A DNA stretch of 64,000 bases, from assembly GCA_023703655.1 (NCBI GenBank), contig CP097973.1, forward strand, positions 1,234,170-1,298,169, read 5' to 3'. The position numbers and the translations under genes were made by a program. The stretch comes from SAR86 cluster bacterium (GTDB lineage: Bacteria > Pseudomonadota > Gammaproteobacteria > Magnimaribacterales > D2472). This document shows, one piece after another, positions 48,828 through 59,830 of this stretch (its first letter is position 1; the number at the start of each line of letters is the position of its first letter). The notes beneath the pieces are model-generated. The model saw only the letters and a list, made by a program, of their open reading frames with translations, made no database searches and was not told the origin of the DNA.

Positions 48828-49897
48828 CGTATTTTTGTGTATGCATCTTCAGAGATTTCATGATAGCTCACAACCTCTGATTTAAACTTTAGGTAAGATT
48901 CATAGATGCTCTTAAATTGATTATCATTTTCAGCGATCTCATCTAATACAGACTTGGAAATGACTCTAAACTCATTAATAACGTCATCTGGTAGTTTCTT
49001 TAGTTGCACATTGTGAACATCTATTAATTCTCTGAGTGCCTGATTATTCATTGCTGTGTACTCATCAAGTAAGTCTTGATTCACAGCTTTTGCTGCGGTC
49101 TTAACAATTGATTGAAGATGAGTAGGCAATTCATTCCAAGCATCTAGATTAATAATGAATTCAAGCATTGATCCAGGCTCATGCCATCCAGGAAAATAAT
49201 AATACTTAGCTATTTGTTGAAAACCAAACGCTAAATCATTGTAAGGCCCAACCCACTCAGTAGCATCGATAACCCCTGTTTGTAATGCGGTATAAAGTTC
49301 GCCTCCAGGTATATTCACAGGAACTCCTCCTGCTCTTTTAAAAACCTCTCCTCCAATTCCAGGAATCCTCATCTTTAAACCTTTGATACTTTCAAGAGAA
49401 GTAATTTCCTTATTAAACCAGCCAAACATCTGAGTTCCCGTATTACCGCCAGGCATCGGCAAGAGATTAAATGGTAAATATAGACTCTCCCATATCTCAA
49501 GTCCGCCTCCCCTATTAACCCATGCGTTAATTTCATCAGCTGTAAATCCAAATGGAACGCCAGCAAAAAATTGAGCTGCAGGTATCTTTCCTTTCCAGTA
49601 GTAAGCGCCACCATGTCCCATTTGCACTGAGCCGCTTGATACAGCATCAAATACACCCATAGCTGGAACAATCTCGCCAGCCCCATAAACCTTTATTTCT
49701 AGTTGGCCTGATGACATTTCTTGAACTAGCCTACTAAATCGCTCGGGTGCCATGCCCAGTCCAGGTAAATTTTTGGGCCAAGTGGTAACCAATGACCATT
49801 TAAATTTCTTGTCTTGGACAACAGCAGTTTCTGTTACATTTTCTGCACATGAAGAAATAAACAGCAGGAGTGGGATTAAAAAAAATAACTTTCTCAT
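48824..49897 (-). CDS. TRAP transporter solute-binding lipoprotein, TakP-type
   Basis: From the ATG at 49897 (MRKLFFLIPLL), overlapping the uvrD stop as ATGA, the protein has 357 residues. The signal ends in a lipobox-like LFISSC, so the receptor may be lipid-anchored, which is less usual for DctP proteins. TakP-type features are KWSLVTTWPKNLPGLG, MRIPGIGGEVFKRAGG, the binding-site stretch DATEWVGPYNDLAFGF and YYYFPGWHEPG. TakP relatives bind 2-oxo acids or lactate with a cation. The partner membrane subunits lie at 45.5-47.3 kb on the other strand. Confidence 0.88.
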   Translation of the reverse strand: MRKLFFLIPLLLFISSCAENVTETAVVQDKKFKWSLVTTWPKNLPGLGMAPERFSRLVQEMSSGQLEIKVYGAGEIVPAMGVFDAVSSGSVQMGHGGAYYWKGKIPAAQFFAGVPFGFTADEINAWVNRGGGLEIWESLYLPFNLLPMPGGNTGTQMFGWFNKEITSLESIKGLKMRIPGIGGEVFKRAGGVPVNIPGGELYTALQTGVIDATEWVGPYNDLAFGFQQIAKYYYFPGWHEPGSMLEFIINLDAWNELPTHLQSIVKTAAKAVNQDLLDEYTAMNNQALRELIDVHNVQLKKLPDDVINEFRVISKSVLDEIAENDNQFKSIYESYLKFKSEVVSYHEISEDAYTKIR

Positions 49898-52062
49898 ATT
49901 ACTTCTAAGTTTGCGAATGATAGCACAAGCCACTTAGTGCCTGCAGATTCAAAGTTAACTTGGACACGTGCTGATTCACCTGCACCTTCATAATTAAGTA
50001 CTATCCCCTGACCAAATTTAGGATGCTGGACCTTTTGTCCAAGCGCAATTCCAATCTGATCTTCAAAATCCATAGGTTTTGATTCATTGCGTGAATACGG
50101 CATCGTAACTGATGCTTTTGGTCGAATTTCCATAATGCATTCAGATGGTATCTCTTTAATAAATCTTGAAGGAGGATTAAAAATATCATTTCCATGCAGC
50201 CTTCTTGACTCAGCATATGTTAGATAGAGTTTTTTCATAGCTCGTGTTATGCCTACGTAACATAACCTTCTCTCCTCTTCTAATTGATCAGGAGACTCCA
50301 TAGATCTCCCATGTGGAAATAATGTTTCTTCAAGCCCTGTCATAAAAACTAAAGGAAACTCTAAGCCTTTTGCCGAGTGTAAAGTCATTAGTTGCACGGC
50401 ATCATCAAATTCATCAGCTTGTCTGTCGCCAGCATCTAAAGATACATTGCTTAAAAATTGTTCTGTTATTTCTAGATTAGTTTTGTCATCAGAGAATGAC
50501 ATCTCAAAATTTTTTGCAGCTGATAATAGCTCCTCAAGATTTTCTTTTCTTGTTTTACCCTTCTCGCCAGGCTCTTTCTCATGAAACTGTATCAAACCTG
50601 ATTGCTCTAATATGCTACCAACAATTTCAGATAGTGAAATATCATCAATCTTTCCACATAGACCTAAGATGATTTCAAGAAACTTTTTAAGGCCATTTGC
50701 ACCTCTGCCACTAATAAGATTTTCATCAATCATTTTAGAAGATGCTTGTATGTAAGAGATATTATGTTTGTTTGCCAAAGATCTTATTTTTGCTAAAGTT
50801 TTAGCTCCAACGCCTCTAGTTGGATTTGCTACTGATCTTTCAAATGCAGGATTGTCATGCGGATTAAAAATTATTCTCAAATAGCTAATTGCATTTTTAA
50901 TCTCTAATCTATCGTAAAATCTGAGTCCACCATAGATTCTGTAGGGAATATTTGCTCGCAAAAGCGCCTCTTCAATTGCTCTTGATTGTGCATTAGATCT
51001 GTAAATCACTGCTGAATCACTGAAAAGCTCGCCGCCATCCATCCAGCTCTTAATAATTTCGGCAACAAATCTTGCCTCATCCTGCTCATTAAAAGCTTGG
51101 TAAAGAGTAATTTGTTCTCCTTCATTAGATTCTGTCCATAAATTTTTACCGAGTCTGGCTTGATTATTTTCTATTAAAGCATTTGCTGCATTTAAGATAA
51201 TGCTTGTCGATCGATAGTTTTGCTCAAGACGAATGGTTGCATTCTGTTTATGCTTGGTTTTAAAGTCTTCTAAGTGGCCAACTTTTGCACCCCTCCACCC
51301 ATAAATTGACTGATCATCATCTCCAACTGCTGTAATACTTGTTTCCTTTGAAGCAACCTCATTTAACCATGCATATTGAATTACATTTGTGTCTTGAAAC
51401 TCATCAATGAGAATATGCCTGAATCTTCGATGAAAGAAATCTCTTACCTTTTTGTTTGTCTTTAGCAGCTCATAACTTTTTAAGAGTAATTCTGCAAAAT
51501 CAACCAAGCTATCCTTTTTACAAATTTCGTCATACTGGGAATATATTTTTTTTACTGTCTCAGCATAGAAGTCTTTACTATCATCAACATTCTTTGGCCT
51601 TTTGCCAGCATCTTTCCATGAATTGATTTGCCATTGTATTTGCTTGGCAGGCCATGAACTTTCCTCTAGATTATTATCTTTACAAATCCTCTTAATAACC
51701 CGCAACTGATCTTCAGCATCAAGCACAGTAAATGTTGAAATAAGATTTGCTTCCTTATAAAAACGTTTGAGAGTTCTGTGAGCAAGTCCATGAAAAGTGC
51801 CACACCACAGATCCGCTAAAGGTGATTGAAGTAGTTCCTGAATTCTTGACTTCATCTCATTAGCAGCTTTATTGGTAAAGGTAACTGCCATTACAGAATT
51901 TGGATTTGACTGCATAGCCTCAACTATCCACGCAACCCTGTGAACTAATACTCTAGTCTTGCCTGATCCAGCTCCAGCAAGCACAAGTAGACTGGGAGCC
52001 TCAGAAGTTACCGCATCACGTTGACGATCATTTAATTCATTAAGAATATTAGAGACATCCAT
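49894..52062 (-). CDS. uvrD: DNA helicase II (UvrD)
   Basis: The 722-residue SF1 helicase has the Q-motif LNDRQRDAV, Walker A LVLAGAGSGKTRVLVHR, AVTFTNKAANEMKSRI, Walker B FRHILIDEFQDTN, TAVGDDDQSIYGWRGA, LEQNYRST and VQLMTLHSAKGLEFPLVFMTGLEETLFPH. The C-terminal extension includes GQKVQHPKFGQGIVL, a UvrD/PcrA RNA-polymerase-binding-type tail. It serves nucleotide-excision and mismatch repair. Confidence 0.95.
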   Translation of the reverse strand: MDVSNILNELNDRQRDAVTSEAPSLLVLAGAGSGKTRVLVHRVAWIVEAMQSNPNSVMAVTFTNKAANEMKSRIQELLQSPLADLWCGTFHGLAHRTLKRFYKEANLISTFTVLDAEDQLRVIKRICKDNNLEESSWPAKQIQWQINSWKDAGKRPKNVDDSKDFYAETVKKIYSQYDEICKKDSLVDFAELLLKSYELLKTNKKVRDFFHRRFRHILIDEFQDTNVIQYAWLNEVASKETSITAVGDDDQSIYGWRGAKVGHLEDFKTKHKQNATIRLEQNYRSTSIILNAANALIENNQARLGKNLWTESNEGEQITLYQAFNEQDEARFVAEIIKSWMDGGELFSDSAVIYRSNAQSRAIEEALLRANIPYRIYGGLRFYDRLEIKNAISYLRIIFNPHDNPAFERSVANPTRGVGAKTLAKIRSLANKHNISYIQASSKMIDENLISGRGANGLKKFLEIILGLCGKIDDISLSEIVGSILEQSGLIQFHEKEPGEKGKTRKENLEELLSAAKNFEMSFSDDKTNLEITEQFLSNVSLDAGDRQADEFDDAVQLMTLHSAKGLEFPLVFMTGLEETLFPHGRSMESPDQLEEERRLCYVGITRAMKKLYLTYAESRRLHGNDIFNPPSRFIKEIPSECIMEIRPKASVTMPYSRNESKPMDFEDQIGIALGQKVQHPKFGQGIVLNYEGAGESARVQVNFESAGTKWLVLSFANLEVI

Positions 52063-52068
52063 TTATTT

Positions 52069-52698
52069 TTAGTATATAAGACGCTCTCTAAACCACAGAT
52101 TCACGATCCATTTCTCTCCATTGGTTACAGGCATACCTGCATGCAAAGATTTTGGATGAATATTAGTTGTATCTTTTTCACAATTATGAAAGATCAATAC
52201 ATCCCCTTTTCTAGCATCAATATTAAATCCCAATTCTGGAAAATCTGTTCCACCACCATCCTCAACATCATTTAGATATGCAATGGCCGTTAAAAGTCGT
52301 TGTCCACCAGGCTCCCAATTTTTCTTTCCTTCCTCTGTTTTATAGTCAAATGAGTCAAAGTGGGCTTTATATTCGCCTGCCGTTTCATAATAAACAAGTT
52401 GGTATTGCTCAGCATTCCTGATGGGCATTTGAACTAAAATGGATATTCGCTTGCTGACCTCATGAAGAATGTCATTCTCATCATGTGTTAACCAACAATT
52501 TTGACTGGTTCGACTTTTATGTGTGACATGCTGATCTGAGCTTATAACAGTTGATTCCTTTAGCTTGTTTTTGCCAGCTTCTATGAAAGAATTGCACTCA
52601 TGATCATTCAAAAAATCGTTTACAACATAAACGATTGGATCTGCACTATACATCGTCACATTTTCTGCTATCTTTTTTGGAAAGTCTGTTTCAGTCAT
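52069..52698 (-). CDS. Prolyl 4-hydroxylase-like 2-oxoglutarate/Fe(II) dioxygenase
   Basis: From the ATG at 52698 (MTETDFPKK) the protein has 209 residues; an in-frame TTG at 52722 is an alternative. It shows the P4H domain order: KSRTSQNCWL (residues 61-70), the metal pair His113 and Asp115 in KAHFDSFDY, LLTAIAYLNDVEDGGGTDFPELG, GDVLIFHN, the distal His186 in SLHAGMPV and Lys196 for 2-oxoglutarate in GEKWIVNLWFRE. There is no signal peptide, so it acts in the cytoplasm. Its start is only 30 bp from that of a GT60-like GlcNAc transferase on the opposite strand, which suggests a joint hydroxyproline-glycosylation pathway. Free amino acid or a translation factor are other possible substrates. 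Confidence 0.85.
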   Translation of the reverse strand: MTETDFPKKIAENVTMYSADPIVYVVNDFLNDHECNSFIEAGKNKLKESTVISSDQHVTHKSRTSQNCWLTHDENDILHEVSKRISILVQMPIRNAEQYQLVYYETAGEYKAHFDSFDYKTEEGKKNWEPGGQRLLTAIAYLNDVEDGGGTDFPELGFNIDARKGDVLIFHNCEKDTTNIHPKSLHAGMPVTNGEKWIVNLWFRERLIY

Positions 52699-52728
52699 AT
52701 GAGATAATTGTATCTTAGACAAATAGTT

Positions 52729-53721
52729 ATGAGTATATTTATATCAATAGCTTCTTACCAAGATCCTTTGCTAGAAAGTACTGTATTTAGTGCAATTCAT
52801 AATGCTGATAATCCAAACAATCTCGTATTTGGCATTTGTGATCAATCCTCTAATATTAAAGATCTATCAGCATATAATGCTCAATCTGAAATAAAGTATG
52901 AGCACGTTGATCCTATACTTTCGAAGGGACCATGTTGGGCTCGAAATCGCATCCAAAGTCTCTTTCAAGATGAAGAGTTTTATTTACAAATTGACTCACA
53001 TACTCAATTTGATAAACATTGGGATACATTTTTAATAGAAAACTATACAAAAATTAAGAATATTTCTCAGGATATATATTTTGCAAAACCCATTCTAACC
53101 TGTTACCCAAGACCATTTGAAATCACTGATGTTGAAAAAGGTGAAGTCAAACTGAATCTTAGTGATCCATTCACGCAGGTAATAACATACAGAAAAGATA
53201 GTATTTTTATGCGTGACCTTTTCTCAAGGCAAATTGGTATACCAACCAAGTTATCTAGAGCCACTCATGGCTATTTATTAGCAGCAGGCTGTTTATTTAC
53301 AAACGGAAGTTTCATCAAAGACGTTCCATATGATCCAAATTTTTATTTCTATGGTGAAGAAATCTCATTAATGCTAAGAGCATTCACCAGAGGCTATAGT
53401 ATTTTTCATTTACCAAATGTTCCTATATTTCACCTTTACACTGATCCTGTAAATGCCCCAAGGAAATTACATTGGAATGAAGAAGAGGATATGCACAGAC
53501 CAACCAAATGGAATGAACTTGAAAAAATAAGTATTGAAAGATTGAGAGGTCTTGTTGAGAATAAGCTTGATGAGGTGTGGGGCCTTGGAGACATTTTTAC
53601 ATTAAATGATTATGCTGTACTAAGTGGATTAGATTACAAAGAAAAGAAGGTTATAGATGAAGAAAAAGCATTTAACAAAAAACTATTTGAAAGTGCTGAT
53701 CTCAGTGTAAGACCCTTTTAG
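52729..53721 (+). CDS. GT60-like (Skp1 GlcNAc transferase type) glycosyltransferase
   Basis: From the ATG at 52729 the protein has 330 residues. It matches the GlcNAc domain (PF11397) that includes Skp1-hydroxyproline GlcNAc transferases: IFISIASYQDPLLESTVFSAI at the N-terminus, NNLVFGICDQS, CWARNRIQSLFQDEEFYLQIDSHTQFDKHWD with the metal-binding DSH, a middle LAAGCLFTNGSF, FYFYGEEISLMLRAFTRGY and FHLYTDP. It lacks a signal peptide and membrane segments, so it is cytoplasmic like the protist enzymes. It lies head to head with a prolyl 4-hydroxylase gene; the acceptor protein is unknown. A MazG-like gene follows at 13 bp. Confidence 0.85.
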   Translation: MSIFISIASYQDPLLESTVFSAIHNADNPNNLVFGICDQSSNIKDLSAYNAQSEIKYEHVDPILSKGPCWARNRIQSLFQDEEFYLQIDSHTQFDKHWDTFLIENYTKIKNISQDIYFAKPILTCYPRPFEITDVEKGEVKLNLSDPFTQVITYRKDSIFMRDLFSRQIGIPTKLSRATHGYLLAAGCLFTNGSFIKDVPYDPNFYFYGEEISLMLRAFTRGYSIFHLPNVPIFHLYTDPVNAPRKLHWNEEEDMHRPTKWNELEKISIERLRGLVENKLDEVWGLGDIFTLNDYAVLSGLDYKEKKVIDEEKAFNKKLFESADLSVRPF

Positions 53722-58365: not shown

Positions 58366-58883
58366 TTTAAATTATGTGTTTTGATTACTTTCCATTGATT
58401 GATGTGTTCATTCACATCAACAATTGAAATTTTACTCATTACTACCTCATTTGGCGATAAAAAACTTTCTATAGAAGACTGCTTTTTGCTCTCCTCAATA
58501 TTTCCATAAAACAAACTAATATGTGGAAAAAAGTTTTCTGATTCTAATTCAAGCAACTTATCTAAAGTGTTCTTGAGTTTAAGCAAAGAATTATTTTTTT
58601 TGACTTTAAGAAATAAGGCCTGAAAAAACTCATTTTTAATTCCAAAACCACCTATATTCAACACTATTCTGCTATAACTTTTTAAATGCTTTGAAAGACA
58701 ACTATCAATATCAAGAACTGAATCTAAAATAGGGCCGGATAAAGTTAGATGAGGCTCAAAATTTGGTCCATTGAGTTTCTGATTAATATTATCTTTGAGA
58801 GCAGTTAATTCTTTAAGAGATGAATCTTCAAATTGTCCCCATATATATAGAGCTTTTGAAATGCGTTGAGATGAGTCGCCCAT
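58362..58883 (-). CDS. 2H phosphoesterase, 2'-5' RNA ligase-like
   Basis: The 173-residue protein has the two HxS/T-type motifs of the 2H family, HLTLSGPIL (about residue 42) and HISLFYG (about residue 121). This family includes ThpR/LigT RNA phosphodiesterases and cyclic phosphodiesterases. The actual substrate is unknown. Its end overlaps the crotonase gene by 4 bp and its start overlaps the ceramidase-like gene by 1 bp. Confidence 0.75.
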   Translation of the reverse strand: MGDSSQRISKALYIWGQFEDSSLKELTALKDNINQKLNGPNFEPHLTLSGPILDSVLDIDSCLSKHLKSYSRIVLNIGGFGIKNEFFQALFLKVKKNNSLLKLKNTLDKLLELESENFFPHISLFYGNIEESKKQSSIESFLSPNEVVMSKISIVDVNEHINQWKVIKTHNLK

Positions 58884-59830
58884 TAGTAATTTCTTAAACT
58901 TCTTTCAGTTCTAAAGTAAAAGAAAAAAGAAAGAGTGGCAAAAGAGGATAATACATGCCAAATGCCATGTGGTTGTATCAAAGAATCAGGATTGCAAAAT
59001 CGTGTACCTGGATAGCCTTGTAGCCAAATAATGAAGGCAATAAAGTAAAAACCACACCCTAAGAAGAACCATGGATTGTAAGTTCTTTTTATCACAGGCT
59101 CGGTCTTCATCAATACTGCTGGCAACCAAAAGAGAATAACCCACCAATAAGAACTGAAATCACTGATAATCTCATTTGGAAACGTTCCAAATAATGACAT
59201 CACAGCGATAGCAATAAAACCTGAGAATAGTCTCATATAGTTTGACCAAAAGTTCATCAAAACCTCAGTAATAATCCACCACCCAATTGACAATGCCCAA
59301 AGATTAAAATTGATACCTAAATCGTATCCAAAAAACCAGCTTAGAAGTGCAAAAATAGTTATTAAAGATAAATAAGTTTTTATAAAAGAAGACTCTTTCC
59401 AATCGTTGCAAGTAAAAATATTTATCAACCAAGGAATAGAAATATAAATAATCATGCTGAGCCAATCAGCCCATTGGCCCCAAGCAGTATGAGTGCCATG
59501 CATTAATAGCGAACCAGGTCCTAGAAAAACAGCTGCAGATGCATACAGTAATGCAATGAGATTTGGCCCTTTGAATTTTATAAGCTTTGCTCGTGGCTCT
59601 TTACTTAAGATCCAGAACATAAATAAGCCAGTGATGATAAATCCTAAATTACTTAGAGCATTGACAGGCTCTCTAAAATAACCACCACTAATCCTTTCAC
59701 ACCAGCGTGAAACTGACCCAATAGAGTAGCCAGGTTCAACTGATAAGAAAAAGGGGAAGTTTGCAAGCGTTAAGTAAATTGCAAAAAATGCTACAACAAA
59801 GCTCAAAGGTAATAAGAAAACTCTATTCAT
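58883..59830 (-). CDS. Ceramidase-like membrane hydrolase (CREST superfamily)
   Basis: The 315-residue protein has about eight helices and the pattern of alkaline ceramidases: WCERISGGYFREPVNALSNLGF, GPGSLLMHGTHTAWGQWADWLSM (Ser, His and Asp) and a C-terminal QPHGIWHVLSSFA (two His). The zinc-site order S-H-D-H-H is that of the ceramidase/adiponectin-receptor superfamily. Bacterial substrates could be ceramides or other amides of long-chain bases. The gene is in a lipid-oriented neighbourhood with a sterol-desaturase-like gene. Confidence 0.75.
   Translation of the reverse strand: MNRVFLLPLSFVVAFFAIYLTLANFPFFLSVEPGYSIGSVSRWCERISGGYFREPVNALSNLGFIITGLFMFWILSKEPRAKLIKFKGPNLIALLYASAAVFLGPGSLLMHGTHTAWGQWADWLSMIIYISIPWLINIFTCNDWKESSFIKTYLSLITIFALLSWFFGYDLGINFNLWALSIGWWIITEVLMNFWSNYMRLFSGFIAIAVMSLFGTFPNEIISDFSSYWWVILFWLPAVLMKTEPVIKRTYNPWFFLGCGFYFIAFIIWLQGYPGTRFCNPDSLIQPHGIWHVLSSFATLSFFFYFRTERSLRNY

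Follow-up and report, generated by a model that had tools for sequence, protein, structure and literature searches.

The gene pair at the window locus

The window, which is the whole 64,000 nt stretch of DNA analysed (G000:C1:1234170-1298169), belongs to a SAR86 genome of 1.33 Mb in one contig. It contains two genes arranged head to head. The first encodes a collagen/BaP4H-type prolyl 4-hydroxylase of 209 aa (P4H; 52069..52698, minus strand), assigned from PF13640, a phmmer search of the PDB and an AF2 model. The second encodes a 330-aa glycosyltransferase of the GT60 family (PF11397; 52729..53721, plus strand), assigned from PF11397, an AF2 model and PDB folds. The P4H ORF (52069-52722, minus strand) reaches upstream to a TTG at 52722, with an ATG at 52698, and the GT60 ORF (52708-53721, plus strand) has its ATG at 52729. 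The sequence between the two divergent ATG starts is 30 bp long (52699..52728), exactly as in the original prediction, and this short divergent layout was kept in relatives. Inspection by eye revealed no signal peptide on either enzyme, which to that extent agrees with the cytoplasmic location proposed for both.

From neighbourhood comparison, the conserved left flank of the site is a uvrD-type helicase gene (49894..52062, minus strand) and the conserved right flank encodes a MazG-like pyrophosphohydrolase (PF03819; 53735..54151, plus strand); both lie outside the system. In many relatives from the same SAR86 family (f1), an RpiR-type HTH/SIS regulator gene is located between uvrD and P4H (e.g. 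L037 3310-4191). The window genome is without this regulator, the gap between uvrD and P4H being only 52063-52068. Elsewhere in the window, a gene at 58883-59830 (minus strand) encodes a ceramidase-family (PF05875) membrane protein, unusual for a marine gammaproteobacterium. Across the 1.33 Mb genome, this P4H was the sole match to PF13640, and all matches to PF11397 fell in the one GT60 ORF. PF11397 is scarce in the class, being found in 4/369 genomes.

Assignment of the two enzymes

The P4H matched PF13640 with an E-value of 2.9e-14 (54 bits, cut-off 27). In the alignment of SAR86 P4Hs, the HxD metal-binding motif was His113-Phe-Asp115 (52354..52362, minus strand), the distal metal ligand His186 (52141..52143, minus strand) and the 2-oxoglutarate-binding residue Lys196 (52111..52113, minus strand). 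All four residues, numbered from the ATG, were as originally claimed. In four relatives the HxD motif was either RxD or lost. The window enzyme carries HDHK plus the substrate RTS motif, as do BaP4H/collagen-type enzymes. The phmmer search against the PDB matched BaP4H (E 1e-32) and Cr-P4H (E 3e-28) and gave no match to PHD2, PPHD or DdPhyA at E<1. Structure models were made for both enzymes. For the P4H model (AF2, pLDDT 90), the best fold was 3gze, Chlamydomonas P4H-1 with (Ser-Pro)5 (E 1.5e-21), with further matches to BaP4H and collagen P4H, and to DdPhyA, PPHD and PHD2 near 1e-10. By sequence and model, the P4H is of the collagen/BaP4H/Cr-P4H type and not of the PHD type, and its predicted activity is peptidyl-proline hydroxylation. 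The expectation of a Skp1-hydroxylating type of P4H was therefore not borne out. Since the Skp1 hydroxylase is PHD-type (PMC7864055), the pairing with GT60 would be convergent on the P4H side.

The GT60 protein matched PF11397 with an E-value of 1.6e-48 (166.4 bits, cut-off 21), and the hallmark QIDSHTQF that had been singled out was located at residues 87-94. Within it, the DSH (DxH) catalytic motif (52993..53001, plus strand) was invariant in 30 GT60 homologues, bacterial and viral, and was present in every SAR86 allele whose region is assembled. The window enzyme also keeps EE, H235 and W249. With this score and the DSH retained, a weak family match lacking the DxH site was excluded. The best PDB folds for the AF2 model (pLDDT 94.6) were ppGalNAc-T2 and other GT27 enzymes (Foldseek, E 4e-10). 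As modelled, GT60 has a GT-A fold related to ppGalNAc-T and is Ser/Thr-transferase-like. Its predicted activity is transfer from UDP-GlcNAc to a peptide acceptor.

Presence, loss and exchange of the pair

The order set comprised 203 genomes, and f1, with membership taken from handle order, comprised 107 of these. Both genes were found in 45 f1 genomes and neither in 59; one had GT60 only and two had P4H only. The GT60-only genome (G502) and one P4H-only genome (G517) both break off at contig ends. The other, G007, is a genuine P4H-only genome with the GT60 slot filled by another ORF. This ORF, between P4H and mazG, encodes 272 aa (L248 3771-4586, plus strand); it appears 2OG-dioxygenase-like by eye and had no Pfam match and no solid PDB match. 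The f1 PF11397 genomes that were sampled had the divergent pair between uvrD (usually with the rpiR-type regulator) and mazG, while pair-negative f1 genomes retained uvrD and mazG with the pair cleanly absent between them. The predicted recurrence of the neighbourhood in related genomes was thereby confirmed.

On the UvrD tree, P4H and GT60 each switched state at least eight times. Among six supported independent contrasts, about five were concordant for the two genes and none opposed (p ~0.06). Because the genes adjoin in f1, joint loss alone could be co-deletion and proves little. In f4 the two genes are unlinked, P4H being beside uvrD and GT60 beside an algH-type gene; P4H was present in 20 f4 genomes, and all 14 with GT60 (14/14) also had P4H. 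The reverse state, P4H without GT60, does occur in SAR86, namely in G007, in f2 and in G039, which is 97% complete, whereas GT60 without P4H was restricted to the contig-edge case.

Several variant loci were also recorded. In two g9-like genomes, GT60 is split into two pieces beside an intact P4H (L131 7968-9015; G484:C1:11403-12105). Two f4 genomes carry, divergent from P4H, an ORF of 241-243 aa with no Pfam match (L260 3230-3952, plus strand; L261 2027-2758, minus strand). A potential adjacent pair in a second family (G055, f2) was dropped, since its contig measures 3.5 kb, the genome has two MazG copies and mis-binning is probable.

Within genus g1, the flanking genes were mostly 88-99% identical at the amino acid level, and P4H and GT60 were down to 40-45% in several genomes. 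When the DNA of G001 and G006 was compared, identity was ~90% in both flanks and 53-68% over exactly the two genes. Across 30 non-duplicate genomes, P4H and GT60 distances were correlated with the flanks controlled (partial Mantel r 0.62, p 0.0005), and r reached 0.93 among 92 close pairs. The bounds of the swap and the correlated distances together indicate a cassette that is exchanged as a unit.

The simplest alternative is that two unrelated enzymes sit side by side through synteny, inherited by descent only. Most adjacent pairs do come from one family and one site, as this would require. It was nevertheless largely refuted, and is very improbable, given that the flanks also occur without the pair, that both genes are exchanged together and that they co-occur in f4 although unlinked. 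Co-occurrence, joint loss, joint allele replacement and co-occurrence when unlinked support P4H and GT60 as a functional unit, so far as comparative genomics can indicate this.

A secreted Pro/Thr-repeat protein as candidate acceptor

Skp1 is eukaryotic, and the original prediction had proposed that the acceptor in a marine bacterium would be new. Candidate acceptors were sought by a hypothesis-led scan with a DNA pattern for alternating proline; other Pro-rich acceptors may exist. In pair-positive genomes the pattern pointed to a secreted protein that consists of a leader, an acidic stretch, an Ala-rich hydrophobic segment (consensus LSAGAIAAAVAAAAAIAA), a (PAPT)n repeat and a variable Ser/Thr-rich region. 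In the window genome, the candidate is encoded at G000:C1:1040611-1041435, ~245 kb from the pair. It has 274 aa, 68 of them Ser or Thr, with the leader and hydrophobic segment judged by eye. Its neighbours are yjbF/gfcB (PF11102), yjbH/gfcD (PF06082) and an SLBB polysaccharide-export gene. E. coli yjbE and gfcA have the equivalent operon position and are Thr-rich. The HMM comparison with GfcA/YjbE gave E-values of 0.0055/0.009, in a search of five sequences and over a low-complexity region.

PVPV pattern matches in pair-negative genomes were considered as a rival repeat and dropped, as they stem from (GT)n repeats read on the antisense strand. In G033, whose P4H is inactivated (see below), the RNase E tail has Ser/Thr-Pro-Ala-Pro repeats (L294).

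Correlation of the pair with export locus and repeat type

An HMM of the acceptor N-terminus matched 30/48 pair-positive and 5/59 pair-negative f1 genomes (p 2e-9), and within g5+g6 (by handle order) 10/20 versus 0/33. By PF06082, the f1 yjbH genes fell into two types, A being full-length and B diverged. The pair was present in 32/36 yjbH-A and 0/35 yjbH-B genomes of f1 (p 4e-16), and within g5+g6 in 10/10 and 0/25, respectively (p 5e-9). On independent tree contrasts, all six supported ones agreed (6/6, p 0.03). In the g5/g6 loci compared, types A and B occupy one chromosomal site, flanked by an SLBB gene and pheT-side genes at one end and by an esterase-size gene at the other. The pair was undetected in four yjbH-A genomes, which are 58-78% complete. 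Conversely, no yjbH was detected in 16 pair-positive f1 genomes, most of them incomplete, but including G486, which is 91% complete in two contigs.

The protein adjacent to yjbH differed accordingly. In f1-A it has (PAPT)n, and in f1-B Big-like repeats with (GT)n. (PAPT)n is again found beside yjbH in f4 (G565, G558, G563, G566, G060), where the two enzymes and the acceptor are spread over three loci. In f3, which is without both enzymes, the protein is acidic/(ST)n with no proline repeats. In f2, where the P4H is more distant and GT60 is missing, the protein has (PT)n or (PA)n in most genomes; in G007 it has (PT)n. In G037 (f2), a P4H gene lies ~6 kb from yjbF/yjbH and a gene for a 788-aa protein that includes a poly-proline stretch (L377 9274-11640, minus strand; L262 3218-3859, plus strand).

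An alternating-proline run of at least 12 residues was found in 29/32 genomes with P4H and in 2/19 in which P4H was dead or not detected (p 1e-8); the genomes are phylogenetically clustered, not independent, and in many cases incomplete MAGs or single-cell assemblies. The former class comprises genomes with P4H ligands intact and P4H-positive genomes with the residues unread; the f2 residues were read in some. Its exceptions were G515, with ligands intact and (TAPT)n, and G471 and G537, with short proline runs. In the other class, G058 and G539 carry (PT)n and contradict the rule unless their P4H sits in missing sequence.

As the pair comes and goes with an unlinked (PAPT)n protein, it probably decorates that surface protein. 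A new acceptor thus gained support, the strong candidate being the secreted protein with Pro/Thr repeats whose gene belongs to a capsule-type export locus. Two other explanations were weighed against this correlation. The first places the target of both enzymes among the cytosolic housekeeping proteins, for example EF-Tu or a ribosomal protein, with an indirect link to yjbH. Neither enzyme has a signal peptide, for the P4H of B. anthracis, a close structural relative, the title of PDB 5v7y reports modification of EF-Tu, and EF-Tu is hydroxylated by PPHD (PMC7864055). Such a target would not predict the unlinked yjbH A/B switch, the P4H-dependent proline repeats, or close relatives that either have or lack the pair and whose alleles are roughly 40% identical. 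Since the protein with which the pair correlates is an exported one, the cytosolic acceptor suggested earlier, such as EF-Tu, was not indicated, and this explanation is considered improbable. The second is that the genes form a fast-evolving defence or selfish cassette, with the variation reflecting an arms race and not the modification of a Pro/Thr protein. Presence/absence and allele swapping are typical of variable islands, and viral contigs are rich in GT60 homologues. As this leaves the correlation with the type of an unlinked export locus and with repeat composition unexplained, it too was given little credence. Modification of one protein by P4H plus GT60 is well supported by these genomic patterns.

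Natural P4H inactivation and GT60 outside SAR86

Four genomes carry an inactivated P4H. In G033 and G466, His113 is changed to Arg, and the two form a group in the P4H tree, with an SH-aLRT of 93 that falls short of the starred level. In G003 and G006, which differ from these, all P4H ligands are lost, so about two independent inactivations are indicated. The dead alleles were observed as intact ORFs beside an intact GT60 (L119 7400-8032, L114 7320-7961 and L121 7315-7953, all minus strand). Their dN/dS was 0.18-0.29 versus 0.03-0.11 in active pairs; constraint is relaxed yet not absent, which makes a residual non-catalytic role possible. The acceptors of the four genomes have (AAPT)n, mixed PAPT/AAPT or irregular xPPT, with proline runs of 4-8 versus a median of 36 (Mann-Whitney p 0.006, with the four genomes treated as independent).

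Outside SAR86, a P4H homologue was absent from 24/35 GT60-bearing bacterial genomes, and a general dependence of bacterial GT60 on P4H was rejected. Several non-SAR86 GT60 genes lie next to a gene for a surface protein, of type V or another kind, that contains (PTEA)n or (PTPE)n; such loci were L144, L148, L149, L155, L158 and L161. At L139, a (PTPE)n protein, GT60 and P4H are encoded within ~4 kb. This was the sole non-SAR86 locus with P4H adjacent. GT60s located beside Pro/Thr-repeat proteins, often without P4H, suggest that such repeats are the acceptors and that Thr suffices as a target when P4H is missing.

At least 596 confirmed GT60 homologues were found on viral contigs. P4H was in the flank of 4/80 viral GT60 loci (L168-L247), and the neighbours were mixed in function (NAD-dependent epimerases, YibB-like proteins, terminase and capsid genes). 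In the jumbo Xanthomonas phage XacN1 (L086 6019-9736), GT60 is directly followed by a carbamoyltransferase gene, possibly a nucleobase or virion modification pair.

These data bear on the strict order known for Skp1, in which P4H would make hydroxyproline and GT60 would add GlcNAc solely there, in this case within the exported PAPT repeats. The occurrence in SAR86 of P4H without GT60 but, the contig-edge case aside, not the converse is the asymmetry expected if GT60 needs the P4H product, and the cytoplasmic Hyp-GlcNAc transferase of Skp1 is GT60-related (PMC8724618). Against this, GT60 retains all catalytic residues scored in the four genomes with dead P4H and has a dN/dS of 0.07 in G003/G006, the 24 genomes above have GT60 with no such P4H, the GT60 fold is that of Ser/Thr transferases, and the P4H is outside the Skp1 (PHD) class. 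A strict Skp1-like order is consequently regarded as unlikely. Of the pathway originally postulated, the functional unit of two genes was supported, and the hydroxylate-then-glycosylate order was weakened by the intact GT60 beside dead P4H and by the 24/35 genomes without P4H.

Proposed pathway

The reading that we consider likely, from these sequence comparisons, is that P4H and GT60 form a co-inherited, horizontally exchanged cassette modifying the Pro/Thr repeats of a secreted GfcA/YjbE-like protein. Ahead of Sec export, while this protein is still cytoplasmic, P4H would hydroxylate proline of its PAPT repeats and GT60 would start O-glycans on the same repeats with an alpha-HexNAc, probably GlcNAc. 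As the sugar-bearing residue, threonine is somewhat favoured over hydroxyproline, which comes next and is itself rather doubtful. The product may be a stiff surface glycoprotein resembling mucins or extensins, by which an exported polysaccharide could be anchored or primed. More tentatively, with dual Hyp/Thr modification, the PAPT glycoprotein might be the carrier or anchor of a group-4-type capsule. Allelic variation of the cassette would then alter the surface met by phages or grazers.

Such a bacterial P4H-GT60 pathway appears to be undescribed so far, and the literature search found no bacterial GT60 named together with a P4H. Enzymes, acceptor and site motif can now be named for a probable new bacterial protein modification in a lineage that ranks among the most abundant at the ocean surface. 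If correct, the proposal would provide a function for the uncharacterized GfcA/YjbE and a bacterial counterpart of the hydroxyproline-rich surface glycoproteins of plants and algae. Glycosylation of the Thr-rich GfcA-type protein encoded in group 4 capsule operons, so far an untested suggestion in the literature (PMC8592465), becomes open to experiment. The natural P4H-dead, GT60-less and double-negative variants separate what P4H and GT60 each need.

Comparison with known systems

The closest parallel is the Skp1 PhyA/Gnt1 hydroxyproline-GlcNAc pathway of Dictyostelium and Toxoplasma, with its cytosolic hydroxylase and GT60-type transferase (PMC7864055, PMC8724618, PMC11570480). Both systems pair a cytosolic prolyl hydroxylase with a GT60-type cytosolic glycosyltransferase. 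In SAR86, however, the P4H is bacterial and collagen/BaP4H-type, the candidate acceptor is a secreted repeat protein, and GT60 is probably not strictly hydroxyproline-dependent. With the GT27 ppGalNAc- and GT60 pp-alpha-GlcNAc-transferases (PMC8724618), the SAR86 GT60 shares the GT-A fold, the DxH motif and a Pro/Thr-rich candidate acceptor. Unlike the mucin-type initiation enzymes, it is soluble and bacterial, has no lectin domain, is paired with a P4H and would act before export.

The SAR86 P4H resembles BaP4H and Chlamydomonas P4H-1 (3itq, 5iav, 5v7y, 3gze) in sequence, fold and Fe/2OG residues, and Cr-P4H binds (Ser-Pro)5, akin to the alternating-Pro repeats of the candidate acceptor. It differs in being inherited with a glycosyltransferase as a cassette in which catalytically dead alleles persist. 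For GfcA, which was termed uncharacterized in 2024, modification has only been speculated upon ('might be modified by O-antigens'), with no enzyme named (PMC8592465, PMC11494523). Like E. coli GfcA/YjbE of gfcABCDE/yjbEFGH (PMC8592465, PMC11494523), the SAR86 candidate is encoded beside yjbF/yjbH homologues, is Ser/Thr-rich, and has a hydrophobic leader at its N-terminus plus one further hydrophobic segment; it differs in carrying (PAPT)n.
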